31,959 nucleotides of DNA from Alphaproteobacteria bacterium (GTDB lineage Bacteria; Pseudomonadota; Alphaproteobacteria; Micropepsales; Micropepsaceae), in assembly GCA_025935155.1 (NCBI GenBank), contig JAICVV010000001.1, positions 1 to 31,959 of the forward strand, given 5' to 3'. A program made the position numbers and the translations under genes. Below, in pieces: positions 5,372 to 23,687 of this stretch (position 1 is the stretch's first letter; every line of letters starts with the position of its first letter). The notes under the pieces are model-generated. The model made no database searches. It was not told the DNA's origin and was given only the letters and a program-made list of their open reading frames with translations.

Positions 5372-5461
5372 GGATGGGTGGCCGAGCGGTTGAAGGCACC
5401 GGTCTTGAAAACCGGCAGGCCCGCAAGGGTCTCGTGGGTTCGAATCCCACCCCATCCGCCA
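5372..5461 (+). tRNA. tRNA-Ser (anticodon TGA), CCA encoded
   Basis: The acceptor stem GGATGGG (5372-5378) pairs with CCCATCC (5451-5457), with discriminator G5458 and genomic CCA at 5459-5461. The anticodon stem CCGGT/ACCGG (5399-5403/5411-5415) closes a seven-base loop CTTGAAA with anticodon TGA at 5406-5408. A long variable arm (about 5416-5433) and a T arm containing GTTCGAATC fit a class II serine tRNA. The 3' end is the insertion site of the downstream element, which leaves the tRNA intact. Confidence 0.97.
5448..5461 (+). repeat. attL core (tRNA-Ser 3' end)
   Basis: CACCCCATCCGCCA, the last 14 bases of the tRNA gene including CCA, is identical to 23674-23687. The identity stops abruptly on both sides. 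It fits the usual core position for integrases that use tRNA 3' ends. Confidence 0.8.
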
Positions 5462-5558
5462 GCAACATTATTTCGCACGCTCTCTCACTCTCTCACAACC
5501 TCGCAAAATGCTAGGCCAACTCTGGCATCCATCGCGTCTTACTCGCGCACATTCTCTC

Positions 5559-5587
5559 TTGACCTATCAGGCAATCGCAACCATGTT
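5559..5587 (+). promoter_or_regulatory. Possible integrase promoter
   Basis: TTGACC (5559-5564) could be a -35 box, 17 bases before a poor -10 candidate CATGTT (5582-5587). Only the -35 resembles consensus, so this is weak. The site lies beside the paired TGTGGGA motifs, which would let the integrase repress its own gene. The rest of 5462-5640 holds no gene. Confidence 0.25.
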
Positions 5588-5606
5588 TGTGGGAACATCT
5601 GTGGGA
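5588..5606 (+). repeat. Left paired TGTGGGA motifs, putative integrase arm sites
   Basis: TGTGGGA occurs at 5588-5594 and 5600-5606, 12 bases apart start to start. The right end of the element has TGTGGGT and TGTGGGA in the same orientation with the same 12-base spacing (23582-23600). Short direct repeats placed inside both ends of a tRNA-targeted element fit arm-type recombinase or excisionase binding sites; the function is inferred. Confidence 0.5.
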
Positions 5607-5640
5607 CCATAGTTCGGTGGATGCCATCGGGAGGACAGCA

Positions 5641-6879
5641 ATGGGGCGCAGCATCGAACGCCTGAAGGCGCTGACGGTAGAGCGGTCACTGAAAAAGCCG
5701 GGCATGTATTGCGACGGTGGCGGGCTATGGCTGTGCGTGTCGTCGCCGTCGGCCGCCTCGTGGGTGTTCCGCTATCAGCTTCAAGGCAAGGCGCGCGAAA
5801 TGGGCCTTGGATCGGCGCGCGATATCACGCTTCAGGAGGCCCGCACGGCCGCAGCAGCGGCTCGCAAGGTGAAGGCGATGGGATGCGACCCATTGCAGGA
5901 GCGCGAGCGTATCGCTGCCGAAAGACGCGCTGAGGCCGCTCGTGCGATCACATTCCGGCAGGGCGCGGAAGCCTACATTGAAGCGCATCGCGCCGGCTGG
6001 AAGAACGCGAAGCACGCGGCCCAATGGAGCGCCACACTGGCCGCCTATGCCTATCCGACAATCGGGACATTGCCGGTCGCGGCGGTAGACGTTTCGCTTG
6101 TCCACAAGGTGCTGCAACCGATTTGGACAACAAAGCCGGAAACCGCGAGCCGCCTGCGGGGACGCATTGAGTCGATCCTCGATTGGGCAACGACCCGCGG
6201 TTATCGGACTGGCGAGAACCCGGCGCGCTGGCGCGGGCATCTGGAAAACCTCTTTCCGCGCCGCTCCAAGGTCCGCAAAGTCGAACATCACGCCGCGCTA
6301 CCCTACGCCGATATTCCCGCCTTCATGGAGGATTTGCAGAAGCAACCCGGCGAAGGCGCCCGTGCACTTCGCTTCGCGATCCTGACGGCAGCGCGTACCG
6401 GCGAGGTGATCGGCGCAAAATGGCAGGAGATCGATTCTAAGGCCCGTGTGTGGACGGTACCAGGCGAACGTATGAAGGCCGGTCGCGAGCATCGTGTGCC
6501 GCTCTCTACGGCCGCTATGGCCGAAATCGAGGAAACGGGCGAAGCACAAGCCTATCTGTTCAAGGGCGCGAAGAAGGACCGCCCGCTGAGCAACATGGCG
6601 ATGCTCGCCACACTGCGGCGCATGGACCGGGACGATCTGACGGCGCACGGCTTCCGCAGCTCGTTCCGCGATTGGGCGGCCGAGCAGACCAGTTTCCCGA
6701 GCGAGGTTGCAGAGGCCGCCCTTGCCCATGTCGTGGGCGATAAGGTGGAGGCCGCCTATCGCCGCGGCGATCTCTTCGAGAAGCGCAAGGCGCTCATGGA
6801 AGCGTGGGCGCGGTATTGCACGACGCCTGAGCAGACTGCGGACGTTGTGCCGCTTCGCCGCGAGGCTGCATTCGCTTAG
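5641..6879 (+). CDS. int: P4-type tyrosine recombinase / integrase
   Basis: 412 residues from ATG 5641, which has a strong GGGAGG eight bases upstream; an upstream in-frame ATG at 5587 lacks this. The N-terminal arm-binding domain (about 1-95, with GLWLCVSSPSAASWVFRY) is of the DUF4102 type. A SAM-like core-binding region covers about 105-200, then the catalytic domain. Catalytic residues readable by alignment to the family are R252 (TAARTGE), H336-x-x-R339 (HGFR), H363 (LAHVVGD) and the nucleophile Y373 (AAYRRGD). The enzyme integrates and excises the element at the tRNA-Ser 3' end, which lies 180 bases upstream. The catalytic set is complete, so the element may still be mobile. Confidence 0.96.
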   Translation: MGRSIERLKALTVERSLKKPGMYCDGGGLWLCVSSPSAASWVFRYQLQGKAREMGLGSARDITLQEARTAAAAARKVKAMGCDPLQERERIAAERRAEAARAITFRQGAEAYIEAHRAGWKNAKHAAQWSATLAAYAYPTIGTLPVAAVDVSLVHKVLQPIWTTKPETASRLRGRIESILDWATTRGYRTGENPARWRGHLENLFPRRSKVRKVEHHAALPYADIPAFMEDLQKQPGEGARALRFAILTAARTGEVIGAKWQEIDSKARVWTVPGERMKAGREHRVPLSTAAMAEIEETGEAQAYLFKGAKKDRPLSNMAMLATLRRMDRDDLTAHGFRSSFRDWAAEQTSFPSEVAEAALAHVVGDKVEAAYRRGDLFEKRKALMEAWARYCTTPEQTADVVPLRREAAFA

Positions 6880-6889
6880 GCTGCGATTC

Positions 6890-6946
6890 GCGCTGAGCTA
6901 GGGCGACGGCCCGAACGCTGGATCACACCGCCAGTCCGCTCAGCGC
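6890..6946. terminator. Possible hairpin after the integrase gene
   Basis: GCGCTGAGC (6890-6898) and GCTCAGCGC (6938-6946) are perfect 9-base inverted repeats. Between them GGGC (6901-6904) and GCCC (6909-6912) form a smaller stem. There is no T-run, so it is not a classic intrinsic terminator, but its place directly after the integrase stop suggests a transcription boundary. Confidence 0.35.
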
Positions 6947-6979
6947 ATCTTCCTTCGCGGTGTGGGCACGAGGTGTGCG

Positions 6980-7714
6980 ATGCGCAGGAAATCTGCGGCT
7001 CGAAAGCCGGCCAAGCGACAACAGCGCAAACGGGCCGAGTTGCTCACTGCCCCGGCATTTTGCTTCTTGCATCTCAATCAAGCCGACAAGGCTAAACTGA
7101 GTGAATTGATCGCGGGTGACAACCTGGACGATCCGGCCTCCCTCGTTGAGCAGATCGAGGAAGCAGTACACGGTTATCTTCATCCTGAAGCCATCGTGCC
7201 TACCCGGACTCAGAGTGCCGAAATGGCGAGACTGTTCCAACAATTTGCCCTGCGCGCAAACAAGGATGCCGCCGCCGCTCTATTTGTCGCTTCTCGCCTG
7301 GATGTCGATTTTGGGAGCCCAGCGCAACTCGAAACGCTTGCGGACCGCGCCCGCATCCATGCCGAGCGATGGGAAAAGGCTGATCCAAGCACGCCCGATC
7401 CCGATCTCGACGGGTACGGCGATCTTCAGCAGAAATCGGCCAAGCCACTCGAAGACCGATCTGGCAATCGCTTTCTTGCTGTGGTCGCGGACGTTTGGGA
7501 AGGACACTCTGGCAGTCCGCCAAGCCGCGAGAAGCTTGCTGCTCTCGCCGGGGTTTGCTGGGCCGCAGTTGGGCGCCCTTACACGATAGGCGCGTTGGAA
7601 AGCCGAGCAAGGCGAGTGCTTGCAGACCCCGACAAATTCCGGCCACCAAGCGACACGGAATGCTTCCGGGAGCCAGAGAACGACTTAGAGCGAGCGCGCG
7701 CAAACCGGCTATAG
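6980..7714 (+). CDS. Hypothetical protein of the integrase-proximal module
   Basis: 244 residues from ATG 6980, preceded by GAGG at 6970-6973; a GTG at 6962 is an alternative. I do not recognise the family. The N-terminus is very basic (RRKSAARKPAKRQQRKR), suggesting nucleic acid contact. The rest is mainly helical, with an acidic linker near residues 140-155 and a C-terminal segment containing REKLAALAGVCWAAVGRPYTIGALESRARRVLAD. There is no signal peptide or membrane segment. It is transcribed with the downstream HTH gene but separated from it by 121 bases that hold a palindrome. Codon use resembles its neighbours, which supports a real gene. Confidence 0.65.
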   Translation: MRRKSAARKPAKRQQRKRAELLTAPAFCFLHLNQADKAKLSELIAGDNLDDPASLVEQIEEAVHGYLHPEAIVPTRTQSAEMARLFQQFALRANKDAAAALFVASRLDVDFGSPAQLETLADRARIHAERWEKADPSTPDPDLDGYGDLQQKSAKPLEDRSGNRFLAVVADVWEGHSGSPPSREKLAALAGVCWAAVGRPYTIGALESRARRVLADPDKFRPPSDTECFREPENDLERARANRL

Positions 7715-7818: not shown

Positions 7819-7835
7819 AGGCCAAAGAGGCAAAA

Positions 7836-8048
7836 ATGAGCGAACCTGCACAAGCGATTCAACCGAGTGGCGATCAAAGCGCGCCACTACTCTGCACGGT
7901 CCGCGAGACTTGCCAAAAACTGCGCGTCTCCGAAGCCAGCGTGTATCGGTGGCTTGCGGACGGCACACTGGACTCGGTGAAGATCGGTAAGTCGCGGCGC
8001 ATCAAATACGCGTCGATTGTGCGCCTTGCCGAGAGCGGGGCGGCATGA
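7836..8048 (+). CDS. Excisionase-family / MerR-like helix-turn-helix protein
   Basis: 70 residues with a good ribosome site (AGAGG, about eight bases before the ATG). Residues about 22-66 follow the DNA-binding excisionase pattern: TVRETCQKLRVSEASVYRWLAD gives the helix-turn-helix, and GTLDSVKIGKSRRIKYASI gives the wing. Such proteins direct the integrase toward excision or control early transcription of mobile elements. The gene overlaps the next by ATGA and has a palindrome just upstream that could be its operator. I infer an Xis or regulator role from context and cannot tell the two apart. Confidence 0.8.
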   Translation: MSEPAQAIQPSGDQSAPLLCTVRETCQKLRVSEASVYRWLADGTLDSVKIGKSRRIKYASIVRLAESGAA

Positions 8049-8533
8049 GCAACGAAGCTCACAACGATCCCTGCGACCCCTTCGACTCGGTCAGTGTGGA
8101 AGCGGCGCGCGTGCGCTTAAGTCTCGAAGCTCTCTGTGCGGAAGGCGCGGCGATGGCCGAAAAGCGCGGCCGGGCGCTGCATAACAGTTTGTTGAATCTG
8201 GGTGTCATCCACAGCGATTTGCCGACGGCGGCCATGCCGTGGCCGCAAGTGCTCGCACAACTCAATTTCGAGTACGATGTCGACGGCGTGCGCTATCGCG
8301 CGGCGGTTTCGAGATTCGAAGATGGGCATTTGGCCGAAATCTTCCTCGATGGCCCCAAGACCGGCAGTGCCGCATGCATCTCGGCGCATGATGCTGCTGT
8401 CGCTGCCAGCCTTGCCCTGCAATTTGGCTGCCCCGCCAAAACTCTGCGCCATGCACTCCTAAAGGTGCCTGGCGGCGAGAGCGCCGGACCATTGGGGCGC
8501 GCGCTCGATCTGACAATGGAGGCTTCACCATGA
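8045..8533 (+). CDS. TSCPD-domain-like protein
   Basis: 162 residues, translationally coupled to the HTH gene (ATGA). From about residue 75 it reads FEYDVDGVRYRAAVSRF, then GHLAEIFLDGPKTGSAA, then AHDAAVAASLALQFGCPAKTLRHAL and a GGESAGPLGRALDL ending. This strongly resembles the TSCPD domain found at the C-terminus of B12-dependent ribonucleotide reductases and in free-standing proteins of proteobacterial mobile elements, here without the reductase. The N-terminal 70 residues are helical and unrecognised. The function of free-standing copies is unknown to me. The Cys pair typical of reductase tails is not evident. Confidence 0.65.
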   Translation: MSNEAHNDPCDPFDSVSVEAARVRLSLEALCAEGAAMAEKRGRALHNSLLNLGVIHSDLPTAAMPWPQVLAQLNFEYDVDGVRYRAAVSRFEDGHLAEIFLDGPKTGSAACISAHDAAVAASLALQFGCPAKTLRHALLKVPGGESAGPLGRALDLTMEASP

Positions 8534-8817
8534 ACGCGGTCCACCCAGACGCGCCCGACGAGCGGGTTGTTCGGGATATCCGAAAAAATGCCCGAGAGGT
8601 TGCACGTATCCAGCTTCGCACCTTCAAAGGCGCGCGGCTCATCGACATTCGGGCGCATGCCCAACAGCCTGACGGTTCGACGGTGCCAACGCCGAAGGGC
8701 ATTGCACTCGGCGTGAATAGTCTTCGCGAGATGATCGATGCACTGACTGAGGCGGAGCGCTGCGCGCGGCAGATGGGATGGCTTGCGGCCGATTCTCCGC
8801 AGCGGAAAACGGCCTAG
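8530..8817 (+). CDS. PC4/p15-like single-stranded DNA-binding protein
   Basis: 95 residues, ATGA overlap with the upstream gene. Residues about 22-75 (VARIQLRTFKGARLIDIRAH, then TPKGIALGVNSLREMIDAL) follow the PC4 pattern of two beta strands, FxGxxxxDIR, then TxKGIxL and an amphipathic helix. The family binds single-stranded DNA and acts in transcription or replication. Sitting before the RepA-like ATPase, it may help open or protect single-stranded DNA at the element's origin; that role is inferred. Confidence 0.7.
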   Translation: MNAVHPDAPDERVVRDIRKNAREVARIQLRTFKGARLIDIRAHAQQPDGSTVPTPKGIALGVNSLREMIDALTEAERCARQMGWLAADSPQRKTA

Positions 8818-8828
8818 CGCCACAAGCC

Positions 8829-10379
8829 ATGCGCCGCGTGAGCGAAACCCCAAAAGTCGAAAAGGAGGGCCCGGCACTTACCGTGGTGCATCCTCCATCC
8901 AGGCCCGCACGTGACGAGTTGGAAGCTGTCCTGATCGGATGGCAGCTGCGCAAGGCAGAGTGGACAGGGGGCAAGGCGGCGAACGCCATATTCCGCGAAC
9001 TGAAGGGCAAATTCGCTTTCTCCGATCCACTTTTGGAAGCGTGCCAGGCCGCGATTGATCACGCGGCCGACAATGACCTGCCGCTTACGCCTCAGCATGT
9101 CGCCGCCGGCATCGCGGCGGAGAACTCCGATGTTTCAGAGGGTGAAATCTTTGGGTTTCTTCGCTCGTGGTCGTTGGGGGCGCCAGCTTCAGGGTCGGAA
9201 AGCGGCTTGCGCCGCGAAATGGCGCACACGCTCGACCTTCTGCGCCAGGGCGAGGCTGCTGATAAGCGGCGACAGGCAGACGAGATGCTGCGCGCGCAAG
9301 GCGTCGATGTGTTCGATGACGTGCGGTCGCTGCTCGATGACTGTACTCCTGCGAAAGCCACTCTGCTTAGTAGTGCCGATTTTGTCGCGAGTTATCAGCC
9401 CCTCGATTACCTGTGGGATGGGATCCTGCAACGCGGCTTCCTCTACAATCTGACCGGCCAAACTGGGGCGGGCAAAACAGCTTTCGCGCTCCGCTTCATG
9501 GTGCACGTTGCCGAGGGGCGGCCGTTCGGTGGCCGCGATGTCGAGCAAGGCCGGGTGTTGATGCTCGCTGGCGAGAACCCCGACGACGTGCGCATGCGGT
9601 GGATTTTACTTTCGGAGCAGGCGGGCTTCGTCATCGCGGAAATCCCGGTGACATTCCGGACGGGCCTATTCTCGATCAAATCTGAACTGCCCTCTCTCAA
9701 AGCGCAGGCACAAGCGATCGGCGGCTTCGCGCTGGTCGTCGTCGATACCGAGAACGCTTTTTTCACCTGCGAATTCGTGGATGAGAACGACAATGCGCAG
9801 CGTGGTGCATGGGGCAGAGTTCTTCGTGACCTCACATCGCTGCCGGGCAGACCTACGGTGCTCGCCCTTGGCCATCCCGTCAAAGGCGCAACCGAGGTGA
9901 ACCTCTCGCCGCGCGGCGGTGGTGCGTATCTCGCTGAATTGGATGGCAACCTCACGGCGTCCGCGGAAAACGGCGTAGGCAAGATTCACTGGCAGGGGAA
10001 GTTCCGCGGCCCGGAGTTCGAGCCCGTTCCATTCGAGATGGTGGAGGAGACCAGCCCGCGCTTGGTGACACGGACCGGCCGCTCAATTCCAAGCGTCATT
10101 GCCCGGCCACTTTCCCATTCCGAGCACGAACAAAGGGTCGAGGCGGGCAACACCGATCTTCAGCGGTTGCTTGCTGCGCTCGTTGAAAACGAAGGCGCCT
10201 CGATGTCCGCACTCGCGGAAGCACTGGGCTGGTTCTCCAAAAAGACCGGCGCGCCCCAGAAGTCCAAGGTCCAAAAGCTCTTCGGCAAGCTGCAAAAACA
10301 GAAGCTGGTCTGCAATCAGGCGGGGGTGTGGTCACCGACTCCATCCGGTCTGAAGACTGCAAAAAAGGTGCGCGCCTGA
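8829..10379 (+). CDS. RepA-like AAA family ATPase with C-terminal winged-helix-like region
   Basis: 516 residues from ATG 8829, 11 bases after the PC4-like gene; an in-frame ATG at 8778 would overlap that gene by 40 bases, and neither has a clear ribosome site. Walker A GQTGAGKT is at about residues 210-217 and Walker B (LVVVDTEN) at about 300-307. The surrounding sequence, including YLWDGILQRGFLYNLTG and VLMLAGENPDDVRMRW, fits the RecA-fold RepA/DnaB-like helicases of plasmids and phages. The last 90 residues look like a winged helix. A residue near the ATPase sensor region, LALGHPVKG, matches the family's HxxK-like site. It probably unwinds or initiates replication of the element; the gap just downstream carries repeats suited to an origin. 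Confidence 0.8.
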   Translation: MRRVSETPKVEKEGPALTVVHPPSRPARDELEAVLIGWQLRKAEWTGGKAANAIFRELKGKFAFSDPLLEACQAAIDHAADNDLPLTPQHVAAGIAAENSDVSEGEIFGFLRSWSLGAPASGSESGLRREMAHTLDLLRQGEAADKRRQADEMLRAQGVDVFDDVRSLLDDCTPAKATLLSSADFVASYQPLDYLWDGILQRGFLYNLTGQTGAGKTAFALRFMVHVAEGRPFGGRDVEQGRVLMLAGENPDDVRMRWILLSEQAGFVIAEIPVTFRTGLFSIKSELPSLKAQAQAIGGFALVVVDTENAFFTCEFVDENDNAQRGAWGRVLRDLTSLPGRPTVLALGHPVKGATEVNLSPRGGGAYLAELDGNLTASAENGVGKIHWQGKFRGPEFEPVPFEMVEETSPRLVTRTGRSIPSVIARPLSHSEHEQRVEAGNTDLQRLLAALVENEGASMSALAEALGWFSKKTGAPQKSKVQKLFGKLQKQKLVCNQAGVWSPTPSGLKTAKKVRA

Positions 10380-10381: not shown

Positions 10382-10565
10382 CGGTACGGCCGAGCAGCCC
10401 GCAACAGCGTATCCAACCGAGAGGGTACGTATAGATACGTCGCCGCTAAATCCCTTACATTTGCTGCCGTATCCGAGGATACGGGTACGCGGTACGGAGG
10501 GGCATTCAAGCCCTCCTTACAGCCGTACCGTATCTCCCTCTTTCTTTGGATGGGTACGGGGTACG
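10382..10565. repeat. Cluster of GGTACG repeats and GTATCC palindromes (possible origin/iterons)
   Basis: The 219-base gap after the ATPase gene contains seven copies of (C/G)GGTACG: at 10382-10388, 10423-10429, 10483-10489, 10490-10496, 10552-10558 and 10559-10565, plus one inverted at 10524-10530. It also has the palindrome CCGTATCCGAGGATACGG (10467-10484) and ACGTATAGATACGT (10427-10440), with a further GTATCC at 10409. Repeats of this density next to a RepA-like ATPase suggest iterons or a regulator-binding array. I see no good small gene within the gap. Confidence 0.55.
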
Positions 10566-10598
10566 ATTGGGCACCGCCTGCGCAGCTTGGGTGGTGCC

Positions 10599-11138
10599 GT
10601 GGCTGAGAAGAACACCCGGATAAGCAAGCGGCTACGTGAGGCAATTCGCCTGATGGTGGAGGATGGTCTCACGAGAGCCAAAGCCGCCGAAACCGTGGGA
10701 ATGACAGATCACGGGCTCTATTCGGCATTGCGCAAGCCTCATGTCCGAGCGCTGAGGCGGGAATTGGTAGGTGCTTTGCGCGAGAGCGCGGCCTCAAGAA
10801 CAATCGCGAGGGCCGAGCATCTGGCCGATAGCGCCGAATCCGAGCATGTGCGGAATGACGCGAACAAGTGGTTGGCAAGCCTCGATCCTTCCACCGCGCC
10901 TGTCGATCGCTCCGAGGTCGCGGTTACGCACCGCAATCTCGGACCTGGGCTGATTATCCACATCACCAGCGGTGAACCTGCGGCGCTCGATGTGACGCCA
11001 GTGCGGCCGCCGCTGCACGAGTTCGCCAGCCGCGAGAAGCACGGCGCCTTGCCGGTGCCGCATCCGGCTTGGGGCGCACAGCACGCGCAGCCAGCAGCGG
11101 CAGAGCAATTCGAAGGCATGGAGCGCGACGATGAATAG
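10599..11138 (+). CDS. HTH protein resembling phage terminase small subunits
   Basis: 179 residues from GTG 10599 (GGGTGGT close upstream). The open frame extends back to 10461, but that part runs through the repeat cluster and is compositionally unlike coding sequence. Residues about 7-50 (LREAIRLMVEDGLTRAKAAETVGMTDHGLYSALRKP) form a helix-turn-helix of the terminase-small-subunit type. A central helical part and the tail (LGPGLIIHI, then a Pro/His-rich end) resemble proteins that precede large-terminase genes in alphaproteobacterial phage islands. No large terminase follows here. It could instead be a regulator binding the adjacent repeats. Confidence 0.6.
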   Translation: MAEKNTRISKRLREAIRLMVEDGLTRAKAAETVGMTDHGLYSALRKPHVRALRRELVGALRESAASRTIARAEHLADSAESEHVRNDANKWLASLDPSTAPVDRSEVAVTHRNLGPGLIIHITSGEPAALDVTPVRPPLHEFASREKHGALPVPHPAWGAQHAQPAAAEQFEGMERDDE

Positions 11139-17400: not shown

Positions 17401-18825
17401 CAGCGGTTTCCGGGCCTCGATGAAGCATGGAAGGACACCTACGGCCATGACCTCAGCGGCCTCACCCAAAGCGAAGCCCGTCAGCTCCTCCGGTTCAAAT
17501 CGACTGACGACATCCGAGATTCAGTCCTTGCGCCAGAACAAGCACGAATTGCTGGATCAACTGGACCGGCTGGCGGCCGAGGACTCGAAGAAGGCGAAGG
17601 CGCGGCAGAAGCGCCGTTCGGAGTAAGCCCTGCCGCCATTGCCTCTGCGCGGGCCGTAGGTGGGCGTTTGGCGCAGCAAGCGCGGGAAGTTGCCGCGAGC
17701 GAAGGTGCCCAGCGTAGCCTTGTGGAAACGGCCCAGCGGCTCAATCTGACAGGACTGCCCGATGCTGCGCTGGACAGCGCCCGCGGTCCTGCCCCACGGC
17801 CACCGGCCGATGATCCATCGCTGTCTCAGTTCATCGTCAGCCGCGGCGGAATTAAGGACAGTGATCGCGTACTCGCGAACCTTGGCCTTAGCCCGCGCGC
17901 GCGGCCCGGCCTAATCAAGCGCTCCGGCGCGACCGTTCAGGATGTGGCGCATGCCGCCACCGACGCCGGTTATTTCACCCGCAGGCCGAGCCAGCAGGAA
18001 CTCGCGACGGCGATCCGAGACGATCTTGCCGGGCGCAAGATTTACGCGCGGAACGGCACGTTCGGGAATGCTGAAGCCCGCGCGGCTTACGACGGCGCCA
18101 TTGCATCGCGGAACGGACTGCGGAGTGACCTGCAGCGTCTCGGCCTCGATCTGGATGGCACCACCAACGACGATCTGCGCGATGCTGTGCACGCAATGGC
18201 TGCGGACGCTCAAGCCACGCCAGCGGTGCGGACGGATTACACCGGCCAAGCGGTGCGCGATGCCGAACAGGCCGACCACGATCTGACTTCCTCGGCCACG
18301 ACAGAGGCTTCAACGACCGACGCGGCGCTTCGCGATCTGCGGACAGCATACGAAGGCAAGCAGGAATTGCGGGTCGCTCGGAAACTTCCCAGCGGACAAA
18401 TTGTAATAGGGCAGCGCGGCCAAATACATGCCGCGCTGCTTGCTGACGAAGAGGGATTCGGCGGGGCCAACAAGATTGCGCCAGCCGATTACGAAGCTCA
18501 AATGGGTTTCGTGACATCCGGCGGGGAATTCCTCACCCGCGACGAAGCGCTGAAATGGGTGGAGCGAAATCGGCCCGAACTAATCGCGGCGATGGATGAT
18601 GTTTTTAAGCAGTCTCGCCGTCCGCACTACCCGGACGAAGGACTGATCGCGGAGCCATATCGCATCGCACTCGACAGCGAGCCTCGATCCATTAGCCGCA
18701 TGGATGATCCGGTTCTTCTGGATGACAAGACCGGTCGCACGGTAACGGCTGGCGATCTCTTCAAGGAAATCGACGAGGACGAGAAGCTTGCCGATGAATT
18801 CGGCAAATGCGTGGGAGGCGAATAA
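14458..18825 (+). CDS. Polyvalent phage protein: DdrB-like ParB, phosphoribosyltransferase-like and other regions
   Basis: 1455 codons from ATG 14458 (TGATG coupling; an open extension upstream to 14275 lies inside the preceding gene). Glycine-rich hydrophobic stretches lie at about 140-245. A DdrB-like ParB region spans about 360-530, with SGNGRVLAIQRA and an FVREANQTHTLGYSATERA segment, followed by its usual helical partner ending in NVAEFVGQGDIFGG. A phosphoribosyltransferase-like region covers about 815-1010, with LLADDMVTQGGTL as the PRPP loop near 930. From about 1118, DPSLSQFIVSRGGIKD begins a domain recurrent in phage polyvalent proteins; near 1350, GFVTSGGEFLTRDEA is another. Such multi-domain proteins are thought to be injected with DNA and to counter host defences. 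Codon bias leaves this frame at 16667-16831 and about 17504-17623, so this may be several cistrons read as one. Confidence 0.7.
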   Translation: MPAAPYTFDDVSDGSAEAIASQQPVAIGPTTDFGQNFEAQWNAMLHANSTMSYDLALSDEYAKVNEAVRKAHGDVLENPIEQALSANEGEAGRQYYLDQYYEYANQRGIGVPSADEMSARARAQMRLSEANAANVSARASGTWASTGGFLGTMAGSVADPPVIASMLVGGGESATVLRTIGREALTAGATETIAQPVIQAERVQAGLPGGVTQGAENVASAAVGAGVLGGVARGVAAGVGAAYRGSTKAYQAMRDAARFAKPATAAEEDAARYTERLADLQGANPLAETPEGAQEHVERLTDAQTRLYNPETDVPETQLPDAPASPVQLPEPLAEPSEPIATRAAVGPQSAASEADTAVTATGRQVPVKYAVVEASDLIPSQTAEGAANPDYPVELQPRDRTRAVSQAQVSSIAQNLNPALLERSPTASDGAPIVAPSGVVESGNGRVLAIQRAYADNLPSARTYRAHLEKQGYPTQGMQQPVLVRVRQGEMAPAERQAFVREANQTHTLGYSATERAMSDAAALPDSALDLYRGGDVEQAQNREFVKAFMSRLPQSEHAGMIDANGALSQDAIRRIRGALLAKAYGDPDLVSGVVESADTNIKAIGGALTDAAADWAKMRAKAARGEMPDDLDTTTKLLDAVRLVQRARNEGRNVAEFVGQGDIFGGSLDPQTEAWLRLMFRNTKDWTQPVGRERFADSVRYYAQEASKAEGGKGLFGMEPSQPSDILALAKEKQHGGQSADSGNLAFDYGKGVSARRAPGEEFGSQETAATRSADFARVSGYGPAGAGLIPRRTPFSGEFPDVVVQQPHDSDIRLVKQPGYEAAKAGDARAARDVVREMLDPDAVAHLREMIGDRKPVIVFVHAEEAAGKNALPGAYAHALGKELGLPVDRDIVQANKPQRTGKDALYRLTTPVEFDGPVKRGQDYLLADDMVTQGGTLADLKGYIEARGGKVIGATSLAAARNSEEFAVRAATLYKLRQRFPGLDEAWKDTYGHDLSGLTQSEARQLLRFKSTDDIRDSVLAPEQARIAGSTGPAGGRGLEEGEGAAEAPFGVSPAAIASARAVGGRLAQQAREVAASEGAQRSLVETAQRLNLTGLPDAALDSARGPAPRPPADDPSLSQFIVSRGGIKDSDRVLANLGLSPRARPGLIKRSGATVQDVAHAATDAGYFTRRPSQQELATAIRDDLAGRKIYARNGTFGNAEARAAYDGAIASRNGLRSDLQRLGLDLDGTTNDDLRDAVHAMAADAQATPAVRTDYTGQAVRDAEQADHDLTSSATTEASTTDAALRDLRTAYEGKQELRVARKLPSGQIVIGQRGQIHAALLADEEGFGGANKIAPADYEAQMGFVTSGGEFLTRDEALKWVERNRPELIAAMDDVFKQSRRPHYPDEGLIAEPYRIALDSEPRSISRMDDPVLLDDKTGRTVTAGDLFKEIDEDEKLADEFGKCVGGE
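16667..16831 (+). CDS. Nested out-of-frame small gene 1 inside the polyvalent ORF
   Basis: 54 residues from ATG 16667 with AAGGAG at 16654-16659, seven bases upstream, an ideal ribosome site. The protein begins MADNPQIQAIWRSIMAKVF and continues as a charged amphipathic helix (ALREKNSALKKQRQLEAQ), which looks like a natural small coiled-coil protein. By hand count, 39 of 54 codons end in G or C in this frame, against 20 of 54 in the long frame over the same bases, whose sequence here is a Gly/Ala/Ser-rich linker. So the coding signal is in this frame. It could be a true nested gene or the ancestral frame of a small gene between two cistrons now fused. Confidence 0.5.
   Translation: MADNPQIQAIWRSIMAKVFQHDALREKNSALKKQRQLEAQTLLASLDMAPPAQD
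17447..17626 (+). CDS. Nested out-of-frame small gene 2 inside the polyvalent ORF
   Basis: 59 residues if started at ATG 17447 (AAGGA about 12 bases upstream, weak). The last 40 codons (17504-17623) read LTTSEIQSLRQNKHELLDQL then DRLAAEDSKKAKARQKRRSE, a plausible basic coiled coil. There, 34 of 40 codons end in G or C, against 15 of 40 in the long frame. The first 19 codons overlap the well-formed end of the phosphoribosyltransferase-like region in the long frame, so the true start is uncertain. It lies in the same frame as nested gene 1 and again sits between two recognisable domains of the long ORF. Confidence 0.45.
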   Translation: MTSAASPKAKPVSSSGSNRLTTSEIQSLRQNKHELLDQLDRLAAEDSKKAKARQKRRSE

Positions 18826-21413
18826 TGGGTGCGCGCGATTGCATCGGGCGGAAAGCGGCGGCCGGCATTGTCTCGCAAGATCAAGCGAAGGCTGCTCGCG
18901 ATCTGTACGATGAGCAGCTTGCTGAGTTGAACCGGCTGAATATCCCGGATGCCGAGGCCGAAGCCGAGCGGCGCACAGCTCAAGGTCTGCGCAATCGCGC
19001 CCTTGCCAACAAGAAGCTCGCTGTGGCCGCTCTGAAGGCCCAGGAGGCCGCTCGCGTGCGGATCGAGGGAACACGCGACCGAGCCTCAGAAGCCGCTCTG
19101 GCGATGACCAGCCCTGACCCTCGCGGCCGGTTCCACGGCCCGAACCTGCTCAACGATCAGCGGATGATCGCCAACCAGGCGCTTGCCATCATGCACGGCT
19201 TTGTGGAGCGATTCCGGACACGCTTCGCTAACGCGGATAAGCTGCCTTCGCCAGCGCTCAAGCAGCGCAAGGCCGTGTTGCGCGATGTCGTTCGCGAATT
19301 GAAGGGCGAGACGAGCGGCAGCGCCGAAGCGAAGGCGCTTGCCGAAGGCGTGGACGCTGCGTTCGAGCATCTGCGCAAGTTGGCGAACGCCTCCGGGTTC
19401 ACGATCCCAAAACTCGACAATTGGGGCCTTCCGCATCAGTGGTCGCGGCGCCTGCTGGCCGGCATCACAGAGGACGGGCTCGACAAACTTGCCCCGGCAG
19501 AAATTCGCGCGCGCAAGGCGCAGATTTTCGCGGATTTCATCAAGCCGCTGCTCGATCGTTCGAAGATGCTGGATTTCAGCACCGGCCTTCCACTTTCCGA
19601 TCCGTCGCTAAACAAGCTGCTCACGGACGCTTACGAGAGCATCGTCACTGGTGGCTTGAGCGACCTGAAGCCTGGAAACTCTCTCGGTGGAATAGGTGGC
19701 CGTCACATGCAGGCGCGGCGGCTGTTCTTCAAGGATGCGGATTCATGGCTTGCGGCCAATGACCGGTTCGGCGAAACGAATCTGATCGACACAATCTACG
19801 GCCACATTCACGGCATGGCGCGCGATATTGCCATGATGCGCCTCTTTGGCCCCACGCCGGAGGCGACGGCGCGATACGTCGAGCGGCTCATCGCCAAAGA
19901 GCGCGGCGAAACTGCGTTGGAAAGTATCGGCCCCAAGGCGTCACGGCAGGCAGGCAATCTGTTCGGCCCGGCAGCCAAGTTCCGGCGCAATTTCGATCTA
20001 CTCGCCGGACGGTTGAGCGGTCCAGAGCACTCCGGCTGGGCGGTGGCGGATGAAGCGAATCGAAACGCGCTGTACGCCGCAACACTCGGCGGCGCTGTGT
20101 TCTCGGCGCTGTCGGACCGCGCGACCGCAGCGGCACAGGCGACCCTCTGGCAGATCCCGCAGTGGCGCGTCATGGGCCGGTTTCTCAAAGAGCTAAACCC
20201 GTTCTCGGTTGCCGATCAAAAGCTGGCCCTGCAAATCGGTCTTGGCGCTGAGGACATGGCCGGCGCAATGGTGGCGACTGCGCGCTACACGGGCGAGATT
20301 CTAAACCCAACCACAAGCCGCGTCATTGCCGATAGCGTGATCCGCTCGTCTGGCCTTGTGAGAATGACGACGGCGGGCCGCGATGCTTTTCAGCTTGAGC
20401 TTCTCGGCTTGCTCACGCGCAATCGGGACAACGCGTTCGCCCAGCTGCCACAGGGCATTCGGAGCGGCTTCAGGCATTACGGTGTGACGGCCGCGGACTG
20501 GGACGAATTCCGCTCGCTGCAACCGTGGAAGGCCGATAATGGCGCGGAGTTCTTGCGGCCTCGCGATCTCATAGGCGATCCGGCTCAGCTTGAAGCAGGC
20601 CCGCTGTTCGACCGCCGCTTTGAGCTCGCGCAGAAGTTCAACAACATGCTGGAAGCCGAGAAGGATCAGGCGGTGATTACCGTCTCGCCTCGCGCCCGGG
20701 CCGATGCGCTGGCGGCCACTCGTCCAGGCAGTCCGCTCGGCATCCTTGCGCGCAACGTGCTCGCCCTGAAGTCATTTTCCCTGACCTTGGCGTATCAGAA
20801 CCTCAACCGGATGATCTTCTCTGACATGCCGATGTGGAACCGTGCAAAATTCGTCGGCTATCTCGTGATCGGCAGCATGGTCATGGGCGGCCTCGGTGAA
20901 CAGCTACATCAAATCGCCATCGGCCGGGATCCGATGGACATGGACCCGACCACGAGTCTCGGGCGGAAGTTTTGGGTCCAAGCAGCACTGCGCGGTGGCG
21001 GCCTCGGCATCTTCGGCGATTTCATCTTCAGCGACCTGAACCGCTTTGGCGGCGGGTTCCTCTCGACGCTGCCCGGCCCTGCGGTCACCGAAGCGGAGAA
21101 GTTCTCAAAGCTGACCTTCGGCAACCTTCAGGAGCTTGCGCAGACCGGCCACGCAAAGAATGCCGGCCGGGAGCTAAACGATTTCCTGCGCTACATGACG
21201 CCGGGGCATTCGCTGTGGTACGGCACGCTCGCCTTCGACCGGCTCATTTACGACCAAATCCAGAAGCAGCTGGACCCGAATTATGCCGAGAGTTTCCGGC
21301 GCATCGAGCAGAAGGCGCGGCACGACACGGGGCAGAATTATTATTCACCACCGGGCTCAGGCTTCCCGCCTCCGCGACCGCCGCACCTCTCGGCGGCGAC
21401 CGGCGGGCCCTAG
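18825..21413 (+). CDS. Large virion-interior-like phage protein
   Basis: 862 residues from ATG 18825, with GGGAGG eight bases upstream and TAATG coupling to the polyvalent gene; an open extension to 18807 is less likely. It starts with a short region containing CIGRKAAAGIVSQDQAKAA and a long charged coiled coil (about 25-95). A long mostly helical body follows, with repeated Ala/Leu-rich helices and one clear hydrophobic stretch near 685-700 (KFVGYLVIGSMVMGGLGEQL). The C-terminus is Pro-rich. Together with its neighbours it resembles the giant internal proteins of podovirus-like prophages that are ejected with DNA. I see no enzymatic motif. It is the last gene of the rightward block and overlaps the end of a convergent small gene by four bases. 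Confidence 0.6.
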   Translation: MGARDCIGRKAAAGIVSQDQAKAARDLYDEQLAELNRLNIPDAEAEAERRTAQGLRNRALANKKLAVAALKAQEAARVRIEGTRDRASEAALAMTSPDPRGRFHGPNLLNDQRMIANQALAIMHGFVERFRTRFANADKLPSPALKQRKAVLRDVVRELKGETSGSAEAKALAEGVDAAFEHLRKLANASGFTIPKLDNWGLPHQWSRRLLAGITEDGLDKLAPAEIRARKAQIFADFIKPLLDRSKMLDFSTGLPLSDPSLNKLLTDAYESIVTGGLSDLKPGNSLGGIGGRHMQARRLFFKDADSWLAANDRFGETNLIDTIYGHIHGMARDIAMMRLFGPTPEATARYVERLIAKERGETALESIGPKASRQAGNLFGPAAKFRRNFDLLAGRLSGPEHSGWAVADEANRNALYAATLGGAVFSALSDRATAAAQATLWQIPQWRVMGRFLKELNPFSVADQKLALQIGLGAEDMAGAMVATARYTGEILNPTTSRVIADSVIRSSGLVRMTTAGRDAFQLELLGLLTRNRDNAFAQLPQGIRSGFRHYGVTAADWDEFRSLQPWKADNGAEFLRPRDLIGDPAQLEAGPLFDRRFELAQKFNNMLEAEKDQAVITVSPRARADALAATRPGSPLGILARNVLALKSFSLTLAYQNLNRMIFSDMPMWNRAKFVGYLVIGSMVMGGLGEQLHQIAIGRDPMDMDPTTSLGRKFWVQAALRGGGLGIFGDFIFSDLNRFGGGFLSTLPGPAVTEAEKFSKLTFGNLQELAQTGHAKNAGRELNDFLRYMTPGHSLWYGTLAFDRLIYDQIQKQLDPNYAESFRRIEQKARHDTGQNYYSPPGSGFPPPRPPHLSAATGGP

Positions 21414-21595
21414 TCGTGCGCTTTGTCAGCCAACTCCTTAAACACATGCTCTGCCTGAGAAAGATCGGGCCCCGCGTAGTAGGTCTCGCCCGGCGCGTCG
21501 ATAACAGAATATCCGCGGATGATTTCGCCGCCGCCGTGCAGTTCCGCCATCGTGAGGCGATACCCGTTTCTTGCCTTCAAGACTCGCACTGTCAT
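21410..21595 (-). CDS. Small hypothetical protein, right arm
   Basis: 61 residues with GGAGCGG about eight bases before the ATG. It reads as a compact beta-rich soluble protein (TVRVLKARNGYRLTMAELHGG, GYSVIDAPGETYYAG) ending in an acidic helix (LSQAEHVFKELADKAHD). No family recognised. It is convergent with the large phage protein, overlapping its last four bases, and lies downstream of the leftward S24-like gene, so it may belong to that transcript after a 94-base gap. Confidence 0.6.
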   Translation of the reverse strand: MTVRVLKARNGYRLTMAELHGGGEIIRGYSVIDAPGETYYAGPDLSQAEHVFKELADKAHD

Positions 21596-21689
21596 TGCTG
21601 GCCGCTCCGTCGTCTGGCCTGCACATCATACACCCGGGTTCGAGCGCTGAAAACGAAAATGCCCGCCGTCGCCAGCGGGCCTCGCATGT

Positions 21690-21893
21690 TCAGTTCAGCG
21701 CCATCAGCGGGGCCAGCTTGCATCCCCATCCCCGCGCGCATTCGCCGGCCGCCCATTGCGCGTCTTTCGCTGTCGCGGCGTAGCAGCCGAACAGCATCGG
21801 CTTGAGCCCGGGTTGCTCCGCCATGATGCACCAGCCTTCGCCATCGTGGTACGCGCGCAAGACCGTGTTTGGCGTGATGTCCTTGAAGTTCAT
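21690..21893 (-). CDS. Small hypothetical protein coupled to the S24-like gene
   Basis: 67 residues; its ATG overlaps the stop of the S24-like gene (ATGA), so it is translated from the same message. The sequence MNFKDITPNTVLRAYHDGEG, then WCIMAEQPGLKPMLFGCYAA and an alpha-helical segment TAKDAQWAAGECARGWGC resemble small phage proteins that I cannot place in a named family. Four cysteines are present. No signal peptide. Confidence 0.6.
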   Translation of the reverse strand: MNFKDITPNTVLRAYHDGEGWCIMAEQPGLKPMLFGCYAATAKDAQWAAGECARGWGCKLAPLMALN

Positions 21894-22318
21894 GGGCCGC
21901 GATCCACCGCGATGAATCTTCCCTGCCGCACGATCCCGACCACGGGACGCACAAATTCAACCGCGCTGGCTTCAAGGAAGAAAGATTGGGGCGGGTTCAG
22001 CGTTTCGCAGCCGAGCAGGTATGCAATCTCGCTGCCCTTCGGGAGCGCGCGGCCAAGCACCGGCGGAACTGCATTGGTCAGGCGCTTGACCGTGTGCATG
22101 CCGTCCGTGCGTTTGATGTGGACGATCTCGCCCCCCTTCGCTGGCGTAGCGGGAGAGATAACGATGCGATCGCCGTCGCGGATCGTGGGCGCCAGACAAT
22201 CGCCGCGCACGGCCATTGCGTACAGGCCGGGGTCGTCTGGCAGTGGTGCTCCTTTGGGAAGCTTTATCGTGCCGAGCGGCGGATTTGCTGTGATAGGTTT
22301 GCGTTTAGCCTGTGGCAT
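21890..22318 (-). CDS. S24 (LexA/UmuD-like) peptidase-fold protein with Cys at the nucleophile position
   Basis: 142 residues from ATG 22318, chosen because GGAGG lies five bases upstream; an in-frame ATG at 22330 would put that site inside the gene. The core reads MAVRGDCLAPTIRDGDRIVI and later HTVKRL, matching the S24 pattern GDSMxPxIxxGD ... xTVKRL. Lys78 is the general base and the nucleophile Ser is replaced by Cys41; the 37-residue spacing equals that of LexA (S119/K156) and UmuD (S60/K97). There is no N-terminal HTH, only a basic leader (MPQAKRKPITANPP). It may be a regulator partner, a self-cleaving protein using Cys, or an inactive fold. It is divergent from an RHH gene. Confidence 0.7.
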   Translation of the reverse strand: MPQAKRKPITANPPLGTIKLPKGAPLPDDPGLYAMAVRGDCLAPTIRDGDRIVISPATPAKGGEIVHIKRTDGMHTVKRLTNAVPPVLGRALPKGSEIAYLLGCETLNPPQSFFLEASAVEFVRPVVGIVRQGRFIAVDRGP

Positions 22319-22397
22319 GGGTTCCTCCATGTTGCCGGTTAGGGCCGGGCGGGAGTTCGCGCTTCCGTCCGGTTCGCTTTCGTGTTAACAGTAAATC
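22319..22397. promoter_or_regulatory. Divergent control region between the S24-like and RHH genes
   Basis: This 79-base gap must hold promoters for both directions. TGTTAACA at 22383-22390 is a perfect 8-base palindrome seven bases before the RHH start. The RHH gene has no visible Shine-Dalgarno and may have a very short or absent leader. Either regulator could bind here. No further boxes were convincing. Confidence 0.4.
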
Positions 22398-22619
22398 ATG
22401 CCACCGTCAATTCGTGATAACACAAAAAAGCGGGGCCGCCCCAAGACGACGGGAACCGGGACGTTGATCGGCGTGCGGTTACAGGAAGGAACGCTTGCTG
22501 AGGTTGACCACTGGGCTCAGCGGCAATCCGATTTTCCATCGAGGCCGGAAGCTATGCGGCGGCTTATCGAGCACGGGCTCGCATGCTTCGACATGGCGAA
22601 CAGAAGGAAGCGGCGATGA
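22398..22619 (+). CDS. Ribbon-helix-helix-like regulator
   Basis: 73 residues. After a basic leader with an AT-hook-like KKRGRPK comes a strand TLIGVRLQ, then two helices (TLAEVDHWAQRQSDF; SRPEAMRRLIEHGLACFDMA), the layout of an RHH/Arc-CopG DNA-binding protein. It heads a rightward set of four small genes and is divergent from the S24-like gene, so it probably controls the right arm. It lacks an obvious ribosome site. It overlaps the next gene by ATGA. Confidence 0.7.
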   Translation: MPPSIRDNTKKRGRPKTTGTGTLIGVRLQEGTLAEVDHWAQRQSDFPSRPEAMRRLIEHGLACFDMANRRKRR

Positions 22620-22786
22620 GTGCAGTCGAAAATCCTGCCCGCGAGGTCTCCAGGCAAAAGGTTCACCAACTCCTGAAGAACCTCCTTCGAGGCGAATCGT
22701 GGATCGGCCGCGCCGCTGTAGTGGCTGCGCAACCCATCTTCAAACGCGAACAGCATATTGAGATTCCTAAAGAGACCAGCACATGA
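22616..22786 (+). CDS. Small hypothetical protein of the RHH operon
   Basis: 56 residues from ATG 22616 (ATGA with the RHH stop). It is helical and basic: SAVENPAREVSRQKVHQLLK then NLLRGESWIGRAAVVAAQPI. No family recognised. It is coupled to the genes on both sides by ATGA overlaps, the strongest argument that it is real; an in-frame ATG at 22583 inside the RHH gene is less likely. Confidence 0.5.
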   Translation: MSAVENPAREVSRQKVHQLLKNLLRGESWIGRAAVVAAQPIFKREQHIEIPKETST

Positions 22787-23043
22787 GCGGCCGGCGCATG
22801 AAGTGCCAGTTCGCAGTTAGCATCGCAATCTGGTCCCTGGGTGCACTTGTCCTGTACGTGATGTGGCACTGGCACATTCGGTCGAGCGGCCTCGACCAGC
22901 TATATGGCTTCGCGCTCTACGTGGTCGTATATTTCTATGTGTTTGCCATCTACCCGATCCTTGCGGCCGTCCAGTGGAACTGGCCCGGCGCCAGGCGCGA
23001 GCGCGAGGCGGGGATGCGACGGTTATTCGGAAGTGGGTCTTGA
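22783..23043 (+). CDS. Small membrane protein, two predicted helices
   Basis: 86 residues, ATGA overlap with the gene before. Two hydrophobic segments (about 10-28, FAVSIAIWSLGALVLYVMW; about 41-62, YGFALYVVVYFYVFAIYPIL) are separated by a short polar loop. The C-terminal tail is basic (ARREREAGMRRLFG), so by the positive-inside rule both ends probably face the cytoplasm. Not a recognised holin, but size and topology would allow a holin or superinfection-exclusion role; I have no direct evidence for either. Confidence 0.6.
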   Translation: MSGRRMKCQFAVSIAIWSLGALVLYVMWHWHIRSSGLDQLYGFALYVVVYFYVFAIYPILAAVQWNWPGARREREAGMRRLFGSGS

Positions 23044-23055
23044 TGGAGGCGGACC

Positions 23056-23262
23056 GTGACCGAGGCGGAAATCCGTAGCGCTTTCGTCGTGTTCATGGGC
23101 GCCGTAGCCGGCACGCTCGAAGGGCGGGGCATCCCGCTCCCTGAGTTTGCAGACGAGGTGCGGGCCGTGGCGGATCGGCCAGGCAACGACCCGCGGGTGA
23201 CCGTGCTGCTGCGAAACTTCGCGGACGGGCTTGTGCTTGCCCACCCTGTCACAAAGAACTGA
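23056..23262 (+). CDS. Small hypothetical protein, last gene of the RHH operon
   Basis: 68 residues from GTG 23056, with GGAGG about seven bases upstream. A soluble, mildly acidic helical protein (TEAEIRSAFVVFMGAVAGTL; EFADEVRAVADRPG). No family recognised. It follows the membrane protein by 12 bases and is the end of the rightward set. Confidence 0.55.
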   Translation: MTEAEIRSAFVVFMGAVAGTLEGRGIPLPEFADEVRAVADRPGNDPRVTVLLRNFADGLVLAHPVTKN

Positions 23263-23296
23263 AAGGGCTCAGGGCTCCGAAGGCTTCCGGCACTTT

Positions 23297-23542
23297 TCAG
23301 CGAATCTCGTCAGTTCCGCCTTTGTGTGGCCCCTGCGCACGCTCATCGAATAGCCGCTGTCCGTCTGCCTCCCGGTGAGCCTCGCAGAAGTAGTGCGCGC
23401 CACGAAGTAGCGAAACCTCGAAAACAGCAGGTTCGCCGCACCAGCAGGAGGGCATCTGCGGACCGGGGGCGCGCTCTGCCCTCGTGGCAGCCATTCGTGG
23501 TACCCAAGCCCTGCGTGCGTCCCGCTTCGAATAGTTTGCCAT
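23297..23542 (-). CDS. Small CxC...CxxH protein, possible zinc ribbon
   Basis: 81 residues, convergent with the RHH operon. After a basic N-terminus it contains CWCGEPAVFEVSLLRGAHYF followed by CEAHRE: a CxC pair and a CxxH pair about 18 residues apart, a typical small zinc-binding arrangement. A competing overlapping frame on the same strand (23269-23613) gives an Arg/Ser-rich product without motifs, so I prefer this one. The ribosome site is weak. It lies just inside the right end of the element; function unknown. Confidence 0.5.
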   Translation of the reverse strand: MANYSKRDARRAWVPRMAATRAERAPGPQMPSCWCGEPAVFEVSLLRGAHYFCEAHREADGQRLFDERAQGPHKGGTDEIR

Positions 23543-23581
23543 CGACTCAAGAGAACGCGAGTCGCTGGCCCGTGTGCAAAT

Positions 23582-23600
23582 TGTGGGTCTGATTGTGGGA
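23582..23600 (+). repeat. Right paired TGTGGG motifs, putative integrase arm sites
   Basis: TGTGGGT (23582-23588) and TGTGGGA (23594-23600), 12 bases apart, match the left pair (5588-5606) in orientation and spacing. They lie about 75-90 bases inside the right core repeat. Region 23543-23751 holds these sites and the core but no gene that I support. Confidence 0.5.
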
Positions 23601-23673
23601 AGGGTCGCGACACGTCGTCAAAGTCGTCCGAAAACCCAGCAATTCAGCGGATGTTGCGAATGGGTATGCCGGA

Positions 23674-23687
23674 CACCCCATCCGCCA
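23674..23687 (+). repeat. attR core (copy of tRNA-Ser 3' end)
   Basis: CACCCCATCCGCCA is identical to 5448-5461. Upstream, TGGGT at 23661-23665 matches the tRNA T-arm bases 5435-5439 at the same offset, so a decayed tRNA 3' end may extend further. It marks the right border of the element. Confidence 0.75.

Follow-up and report, generated by a model that had tools for sequence, protein, structure and literature searches.

The closest described counterparts of the locus studied here, an 18.2 kb element integrated in a 31,959-base contig of a Micropepsaceae bacterium (JAICVV010000001.1; this whole stretch is called the window), are the phage-inducible chromosomal islands (PICIs) of Gram-negative bacteria and phage-inducible chromosomal minimalist islands (PICMIs), the capsid-forming PICIs (cfPICIs), and the epsilon15/SPN1S-type podoviruses (Uetakevirus). 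Satellites are defined by their lack of structural genes in the available text of a 2026 paper (PMC13376191). Judging from its sequence, we consider the element probably a tRNA-integrated phage satellite that would redirect packaging into a helper capsid and bring its own DNA-entry proteins, and not a dead prophage.

Some of the PICI features used in our comparison are general knowledge. Others are described, in part, in the available text of PMC6092414 and PMC10803314. The element resembles Gram-negative PICIs and PICMIs in its size class, its integrase, its AlpA-like regulator, its own replication gene and, in several of the elements reported here, the presence of the small terminase (TerS) without the large one (TerL). 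It differs in its ejection proteins, of which PICIs carry none as far as the available text goes (the word "ejection" is absent from that of PMC10803314). The TerS or other packaging redirection gene expected of a PICI is present, and so are ejection-type virion genes, which a strict definition of PICIs, admitting no virion structural genes, would not allow. In the available part of PMC11389934, cfPICIs likewise make part of the virion themselves and take the rest from a helper; they make the capsid, whereas our element has no detected capsid or portal and supplies TerS and DNA-entry proteins.

PMC8954989, as far as its available text goes, is a review of podovirus ejection proteins and covers those of epsilon15. 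SPN1S and epsilon15 share the gene order TerS, TerL, portal (annotated as head-tail adaptor), protease, capsid, tail proteins, gp13/14, gp15, gp16 and gp17. Four consecutive genes of the element, iA-iB-iC-iD, follow the order of the ejection module gp14-gp15-gp16-gp17, and iD falls in the gp17-type family phrog_684, whereas TerL, portal, capsid, protease and tail tubes were not detected and no spike or lysis match was obtained. To our knowledge, none of the virion-encapsidated integrative mobile elements (VEIMEs), tycheposons and PICI-like element (PLE) satellites is defined by an ejection module. They resemble our element as integrated elements that use phage particles (PMC11389934, available part), and the small marine "Charybdis" elements appear unrelated from the available text of PMC12324425. 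We found no satellite with its own ejection or internal virion proteins in the full-text literature, a scope that leaves out subscription papers and most preprints.

Layout of the element

The window is the whole of contig C256 in a draft genome of 2.46 Mb (465 contigs, 82% complete). An earlier note, made from the sequence alone, had described an element bordered by a tRNA-Ser core repeat, with a complete integrase, a RepA-like ATPase and four consecutive ejection-type genes, one with a muramidase domain and one polyvalent, and without terminase, portal, capsid or tail genes. Our searches bear out this description, coordinates of the repeat included, except for the terminase, since a TerS gene precedes the ejection genes. 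The features that carry the argument are the following:

5372..5461 (+): tRNA-Ser(TGA) (ARAGORN, Rfam), the last 14 nt of which (5448-5461) form the left attachment core (repeat search)
5587..6879 (+): tyrosine integrase with arm, core-binding and catalytic domains (Arm-DNA-bind_3, Phage_int_M, Phage_integrase; Pfam, phrog_1)
8778..10379 (+): AAA_25 RepA-like replicative ATPase, exact start uncertain (PF13481, 2.2e-25; phrog_2850 and helicase-primase families)
10599..11138 (+): TerS, likely with a GTG start at 10599, placed from relatives (phrog_2538 and family context)
11139..11402 (no strand): 264-bp spacer between TerS and iA, without a convincing gene in the search for open reading frames (ORFs)
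11403..11822 (+): iA, 139-residue small internal virion protein in the place of epsilon15 gp14 (assigned via Bauldia iA)
11822..14458 (+): iB, 878 residues, GH108 muramidase domain (PF05838, 2.2e-14; phrog_315, 2.9e-24)
14458..18825 (+): 1455-residue polyvalent protein in the iC place, ddrB-ParB domain (PF18763, 3e-36; phrog_5143, 7.3e-86), start at 14458 by our own gene call
18825..21413 (+): iD, 862-residue virion protein of the epsilon15 gp17 family (phrog_684 "virion structural protein", 1.3e-132)
23674..23687 (+): right attachment core, identical over its 14 nt to the tRNA-Ser 3' end (repeat search)

The two 14-nt repeats span 18.2 kb with the integrase inside, and when the downstream 26.5 kb were put through 2000 mononucleotide shuffles, the 14-mer appeared in one of them. 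Integrated, with an integrase and direct repeats, the element lies within the size range of ~7-20 kb used for satellites (PMC13376191, available text). It carries its own replication and regulation genes: the AAA_25 RepA-like ATPase, and HTH_17/AlpA-like, PC4, S24-like and ribbon-helix-helix (RHH)-like proteins. All genes from the integrase to position 21413 lie on the forward strand, and the integrase, ATPase, TerS and four ejection ORFs (up to 1455 residues) are all open.

The gene before the spacer is TerS as judged by profile and by context. The full ORF (10461-11138, 225 residues) matches phrog_2538 at 5.8e-6, relatives start where the window has the GTG at 10599, and 18 of 21 family members scanned singly match the same family (best 1.9e-11), the 161-residue cut of the window protein itself giving no phrog_2538 match at 1e-3. 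TerL lies 0.2-2.2 kb downstream of this TerS family in all eight IMG/VR loci, two of which (L349 and L350) look like copies, and several continue with portal, capsid or tail genes. The earlier statement that the element has no terminase is therefore wrong.

The spacer sits where podoviruses hold TerL, portal, capsid and tail genes, and it may be a packaging site. As for iA, which has no direct Pfam or PHROGs match, the assignment goes through a homologue, the iA of a Bauldia element (BLASTP 1.6e-10), itself a match to phrog_418 "internal virion protein" (3.8e-6). Relatives of iD occur in 107 phage records.

Search for head and tail genes

Neither Pfam nor PHROGs revealed a TerL, portal, capsid or tail gene among the 17 proteins of the window element that were scanned, and neither database gave a match to a tail spike or a separate lysis gene. 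Profiles that we built from the TerL, portal, capsid, tail tubes A and B and protease of fetched phages found none of these in the window. As controls, a Bauldia prophage gave matches to the TerL, portal and both tube profiles, and L026 and L038 gave matches to those of the tubes. The element thus has no complete virion gene set, does not correspond to a complete podovirus prophage and shows no capsid and portal of its own as cfPICIs do. Judging by size, the only likely capsid candidate among the unassigned window proteins would be one of 250 residues, and none would suit TerL or portal.

Related elements were scanned in two ORF sets. The first comprised 85 ORFs (81 of the 99 called, plus four re-cut) from six elements (Bauldia, Aromatoleum, Castellaniella, Teredinibacter, an uncultured rhodobacterial genome and genome G153). 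Pfam matched 18 families there, the virion ones being only T7_gp14 and Bbp16 (cement); PHROGs matched 54, with portal, capsid and terminase absent among the 25 listed. The second set (67 of 144 ORFs, from Sphingopyxis and Rhodospirillales) matched 16 Pfam families, the only virion-related one being the Sf6-type TerS family (PF20901, one ORF). Our own profiles matched in the related elements only TerL in one Azonexus locus and the protease in Teredinibacter.

Several of these genes deserve a description of their own. The Teredinibacter gene (L127:14138-14860, reverse strand) lies before iD, and its product is protease-like (phrog_458; own protease profile 1.5e-10); it is possibly a scaffold or capsid-size factor. 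A relative of the gene behind the SPN1S capsid gene occurs in one Azonexus element (2.6e-7), with related genes in Magnetospirillum; at the same place epsilon15 has gp8, annotated like the BPP-1 cement protein. A Bbp16/epsilon15-gp8-like cement protein adjoins iA at L125:17704-18105 (reverse strand), with relatives in MAGa (L119) and G153 (L223), and the Bbp16 match would fit the G153 copy. These cement-like genes beside iA hint at modification of a borrowed shell. Downstream of iD in Azonexus hydrophilus (AZO7) there is a TerL gene (L117:5803-7602, reverse strand), which may belong to the element or lie beyond it.

The same layout in other genomes

A podovirus prophage that lost the block from TerL to the tail genes, leaving a remnant stranded in tRNA-Ser, is the strongest rival of the satellite reading: the missing block is exactly what podoviruses hold between TerS and the ejection genes, so one deletion would suffice. 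In addition, the window's closest relatives may include full phages, and the full lifestyle is something we infer. The earlier note had left the choice between a satellite and a deletion derivative open, and had proposed a search for the same layout elsewhere.

That layout recurs. A Bauldia metagenome-assembled genome (MAG) holds a 15.6 kb element bounded by a 47-nt repeat at tRNA-Gln, with integrase, TerS, iA, iB, polyvalent iC and iD in the order of the window. Its TerS is followed by 456 bp with two small ORFs and then by iA, without TerL between them. By BLASTP, identity to the window is 31% for TerS, 31% for iA, 31% over 156 residues for iC and 28% for iD, with no BLASTP match between the iB proteins. 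A locus in a genome of Bauldia's order (L363, G1165:C208) has a window-like integrase (3e-125), Rep, TerS and iB before the contig ends; here 250 bp separate TerS from iB, again without TerL. Close relatives with capsid and terminase genes exactly between the positions equivalent to 11138 and 11403, the finding that would have pointed to a one-off deletion, were not encountered, in a comparison that covered distant relatives, these two loci of the TerS family among them. In two further genomes (G1238 and G1152) the window's TerS family is present and no ejection gene was seen beside it.

Besides the window and Bauldia, six repeat-bounded elements carry at least iD and have no detected portal, capsid or tail tube. 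They are found in Sphingopyxis italica (17-nt repeat at tRNA-Arg, 16.3 kb; integrase, iB, iC, iD, iA), Aromatoleum toluolicum (47-nt repeat at tRNA-Arg, 21.0 kb; iB, iC, iD), a Castellaniella MAG (20-nt repeat at tRNA-Leu, 15.5 kb; iA, iB, iC, iD), Teredinibacter sp. (46-nt repeat at tRNA-Pro, 12.6 kb; only iD recognised, next to genes for a protease-like protein and a CHC2 primase), an uncultured rhodobacterial genome (49-nt repeat at tRNA-Arg, 12.7 kb; only iD recognised) and a Rhodospirillales MAG (51-nt repeat at tRNA-Lys, 33.4 kb), the last of which carries both TerS and TerL. A 172-residue Sphingopyxis ORF before the ejection genes (L366:17258-17773, picked by eye) is read as an Sf6-type TerS. 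That iD alone is recognised in some elements points to it as the component they cannot do without.

Repeats have not been resolved for two Azonexus elements, Magnetospirillum aberrantis, G153, a truncated Burkholderiaceae contig (L075) and L363; a search for border repeats in the two Azonexus and the Magnetospirillum elements found none, and G153 has a weak 14-nt repeat in the T-arm. In L075 a window-like integrase starts 0.5 kb after iD (7022-7490), as would be expected of a circle or a tandem copy; between the two genes there is no tRNA-like core above 13 nt, and we conclude nothing on a circular form. Two Paracoccus loci (L055 and L054) have no tail genes upstream, but no integrase or TerS was shown in them, and they are not counted as elements.

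This recurrence, in distant elements at other tRNA sites and with proteins about 30% identical, argues against a one-off deletion, as do the open integrase, Rep, TerS and ejection ORFs of the window and the resemblance of its integrase to those that adjoin other such modules (1e-130 to the Burkholderiaceae L075 and 3e-125 to L363). Taken with the purifying selection described below, it makes a one-off deletion an unlikely account of the element.

Distribution and conservation of iD

We read 97 iD loci, at least 77 of them found in genome contigs with a profile of the window's iD clade and 20 taken from IMG/VR; the 91 with an iD ORF of at least 600 residues entered the tree. Among the matches listed for these 91 loci, a tail gene stood upstream of iD in 64 and none in 11, with too little sequence in the remaining 16. 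Surroundings were fetched for most of the 11 tail-less loci and a few others. In one IMG/VR set of 80 loci, a tail or capsid gene lay upstream in 53, 26 were too short and a single one (L197) had neither; in another set of 80, a tail-tube match was found in 72.

Close relatives of the window's iD are scarce. IMG/VR holds none above 35% identity, and the genome-contig matches listed include none above 36%, save for two short pieces at 40% and 37%. When 385 genomes of the class were searched, two matches came up besides the window, on contigs of 6.8 and 3.2 kb. The clade of the window's iD (P0002-P0011) consists of eight metagenomic proteins at 52-71% and two at 41-44%. Within its host group, the element seems to be an uncommon guest.

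The 131-row iD tree, built by a quick method, groups the loci of Castellaniella, two Azonexus, Burkholderiaceae, Magnetospirillum and Aromatoleum in one starred clade that spans five families, and a careful tree with IMG/VR relatives kept this six-locus clade (support 94/98). Two of its six members are repeat-bounded. Five have no tail gene in at least 8.5 kb upstream, the Burkholderiaceae locus being short, and identity to the first member is 71-94%. In pairwise comparisons of the clade's iA-iD genes, the rate of nonsynonymous change (dN) was below the synonymous rate (dS) in 38 of 38 pairs, with ratios of about 0.09-0.42 (Nei-Gojobori; the larger dS values are near saturation). The sequence comparison thus shows purifying selection in the clade: a tail-less state has been kept across five families with dN below dS, which counts against the stranded remnant of a deletion.

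The sister of the six-locus clade is L137, with too short a context, and L139, a podovirus that has capsid and tail-tube genes, falls in the group after that. Seven IMG/VR relatives share 57-67% identity; among them, L139, L141 and L143 have tail genes (two of them also a capsid gene upstream) and three are too short; the other, L142 (IMG/VR 3300003154_001818), is an 11-kb viral contig with integrase, an iA-like gene and iD, and has no tail genes in 7 kb. Over the 131-row tree, the label "no tail gene upstream" changes 8 times, against 11.7 in shuffles, a figure compatible with several origins or losses; Bauldia sits on a long branch whose place is unsure. G153 combines related iB and integrase with a distant iD (38%), so that modules are evidently swapped. 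The best reading is that this kind of satellite is polyphyletic.

Since podoviruses have the TerL-portal-capsid-tail block precisely at the junction of TerS and the ejection genes, loss of this block or module fusion probably produced the layout, long ago and more than once. On the choice posed in the earlier note, the comparative evidence favours a satellite with its own entry apparatus over a simple deletion, with the correction that a terminase subunit is present.

A possible life cycle

We propose the following course. The element would reside in tRNA-Ser through its own integrase, silenced by its own regulators. When a short-tailed, epsilon15-like helper grows in the cell, the element would excise and replicate with its RepA-like ATPase, and its TerS would steer the helper's large terminase onto satellite DNA. 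Internal proteins join the procapsid before DNA is packaged; iA, the muramidase iB, the polyvalent iC and iD could then be built into helper procapsids, replacing or competing with those of the helper. The resulting chimeric particle, with shell, portal and tail from the helper, would deliver satellite DNA via a satellite-made entry channel, and the polyvalent protein would go into the new host along with the DNA.

An odd point is that a podovirus helper already has ejection genes, which raises the question of why a satellite should carry its own. Three options fit: the satellite proteins may suit recipients for which those of the helper are unfit, the polyvalent protein may shield incoming satellite DNA, or inserted satellite ejection proteins may harm helper particles. 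On a broader scale, opinion could go either way on whether such elements are widespread and repeatedly evolved "ejection satellites", which would borrow shell, portal and tail, bring TerS (of at least two families), the entry machinery and in some cases a cement protein, and perhaps reach or protect the satellite where the helper's ejection proteins fail.

Several observations weigh against the satellite reading. Excision, a circular form, replication, packaging, helper dependence and chimeric virions are all steps that we infer. The right repeat is just 14 nt long, and no empty site was found, tRNA-Ser being present in none of the 10 same-genus stretches fetched via the right-flank gene. Within the family (96 genomes, its own included), the iD gene occurs in one of the 95 others, at 28%, and full phages may be among the nearest, metagenomic kin of the window's iD. 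A search of 50,697 phage records gave no match to the window TerS, and the structural model of this protein (161 residues, pLDDT 72) has no significant PDB match; the top ones were 2ao9 (E 0.79, probability 0.87), which we take to be a small terminase, and the NV1 small terminase 7joq (E 8.4). Our capsid profile missed the capsid of the control prophage, and the TerL profile missed the Rhodospirillales TerL that phmmer finds, so the profiles leave room for a very divergent head gene in the element. Nor are the related elements uniform: two have no recognised ejection gene but iD, one and perhaps two have TerL, and several have unresolved borders. Finally, most host genomes show no sign of a resident helper: of 12 examined, just two gave a match to the SPN1S-type tail-tube B, with the window's own among the ten without, in a search of limited sensitivity that missed the Bauldia prophage found by other queries.

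Two other explanations were considered. The ejection proteins might serve as weapons that enter and spoil the procapsids of short-tailed phages, with TerS acting likewise and the elements spreading by other means. In the absence of a shell, ejection proteins should compete with those that an infecting phage makes, and some related elements carry Abi_alpha-like or toxin/antitoxin genes (see below). Yet the window and several relatives retain the ejection genes alongside a TerS and a module for integration and replication, as transfer predicts, and interference alone would presumably take fewer genes; we regard this explanation as very improbable. Least credible is a phage split over two loci, in which the missing genes come from one particular prophage resident in the same genome, for despite the prophages that accompany tail-less loci in a Bauldia MAG and in Sphingomonas turrisvirgatae (described next), ten of the 12 host genomes, including that of the window, lack the SPN1S-type tail-tube match in the search already mentioned.

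The Bauldia MAG (G096; L113/L114 and L115/L116) has the tail-less element on contig C1 and a podovirus-type prophage on a second contig, C9, with TerL, portal, tail tubes, iA and an iD interrupted by one TAG stop; the two are a possible helper pair. On the S. turrisvirgatae contig NZ_MDDS01000006.1, a prophage with tail-tube and spike genes (L026) lies ~105 kb from a candidate locus (L028) that has an iA-iB-iD cluster, no tail genes upstream and a tRNA-Asn downstream.

If the satellite reading is true, the element would add a strategy to those in which known satellites steal shells or make their own: here only the packaging selector and the entry apparatus would be made. "Ejection satellites" would invert the capsid-forming strategy, infection by a chimeric particle being driven by satellite-made proteins, and DNA delivery, not packaging alone, would become a target in the contest between satellite and helper. 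It could then be tested whether particles can exchange ejection proteins and whether these proteins shape host range, and there would be an explanation for prophage-like islands now perhaps dismissed as broken. The idea is testable now, as elements occur in cultured environmental bacteria (Sphingopyxis, Aromatoleum, Azonexus and Magnetospirillum).

Other genes and side observations

The remaining genes of the element are as follows:

6962..7714 (+): 250-residue protein, no Pfam family and one weak PHROG of unknown function (0.0061)
7836..8048 (+): HTH_17/AlpA-like regulator or excisionase (Pfam 4.7e-11; phrog_66, 2.7e-6)
8045..8533 (+): 162-residue protein with a weak TSCPD match below the Pfam cut-off
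8530..8817 (+): PC4-type DNA-binding protein (PF02229, 3.3e-10)
21410..21595 (-): 61-residue ORF, no family match
21690..21893 (-): 67-residue ORF, no family match
21890..22330 (-): S24 peptidase-like regulator of the CI/LexA C-terminal type (PF00717, 3.1e-9; phrog_4, 1.6e-8)
22398..22619 (+): small ribbon-helix-helix-like repressor (phrog_4738, 4e-7; RHH_1 below cut-off)
22783..23043 (+): 86-residue ORF, sub-threshold Pfam matches only
23056..23262 (+): 68-residue ORF, no family match

At an E-value of 0.001 or below, the 250-residue protein had no relative apart from the window's own entry. Polyvalent proteins are known from conjugative and mobilizable elements too; the Pfam matches of the 17 scanned proteins include no relaxase or type IV secretion component. 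The hallmark of P4-like satellites is the P4 alpha primase with the psu/delta/sid set, for which the 17 proteins gave no Pfam or PHROGs match, no dedicated profile having been run.

In the Sphingopyxis and Rhodospirillales set (L130, L131, L366-L368) one ORF matches Abi_alpha (5.7e-23), and other ORFs of related elements match toxin or antitoxin families; these are likely defence cargo.

On the right flank of the element, the gene family used to reach same-genus stretches has matches in 44 of 69 same-genus genomes, its own included. The stretch 24121-25827 there encodes a TPR/sulfotransferase-like protein (named by eye), whose family is matched 10 times in this genome and up to 15 times in a relative.

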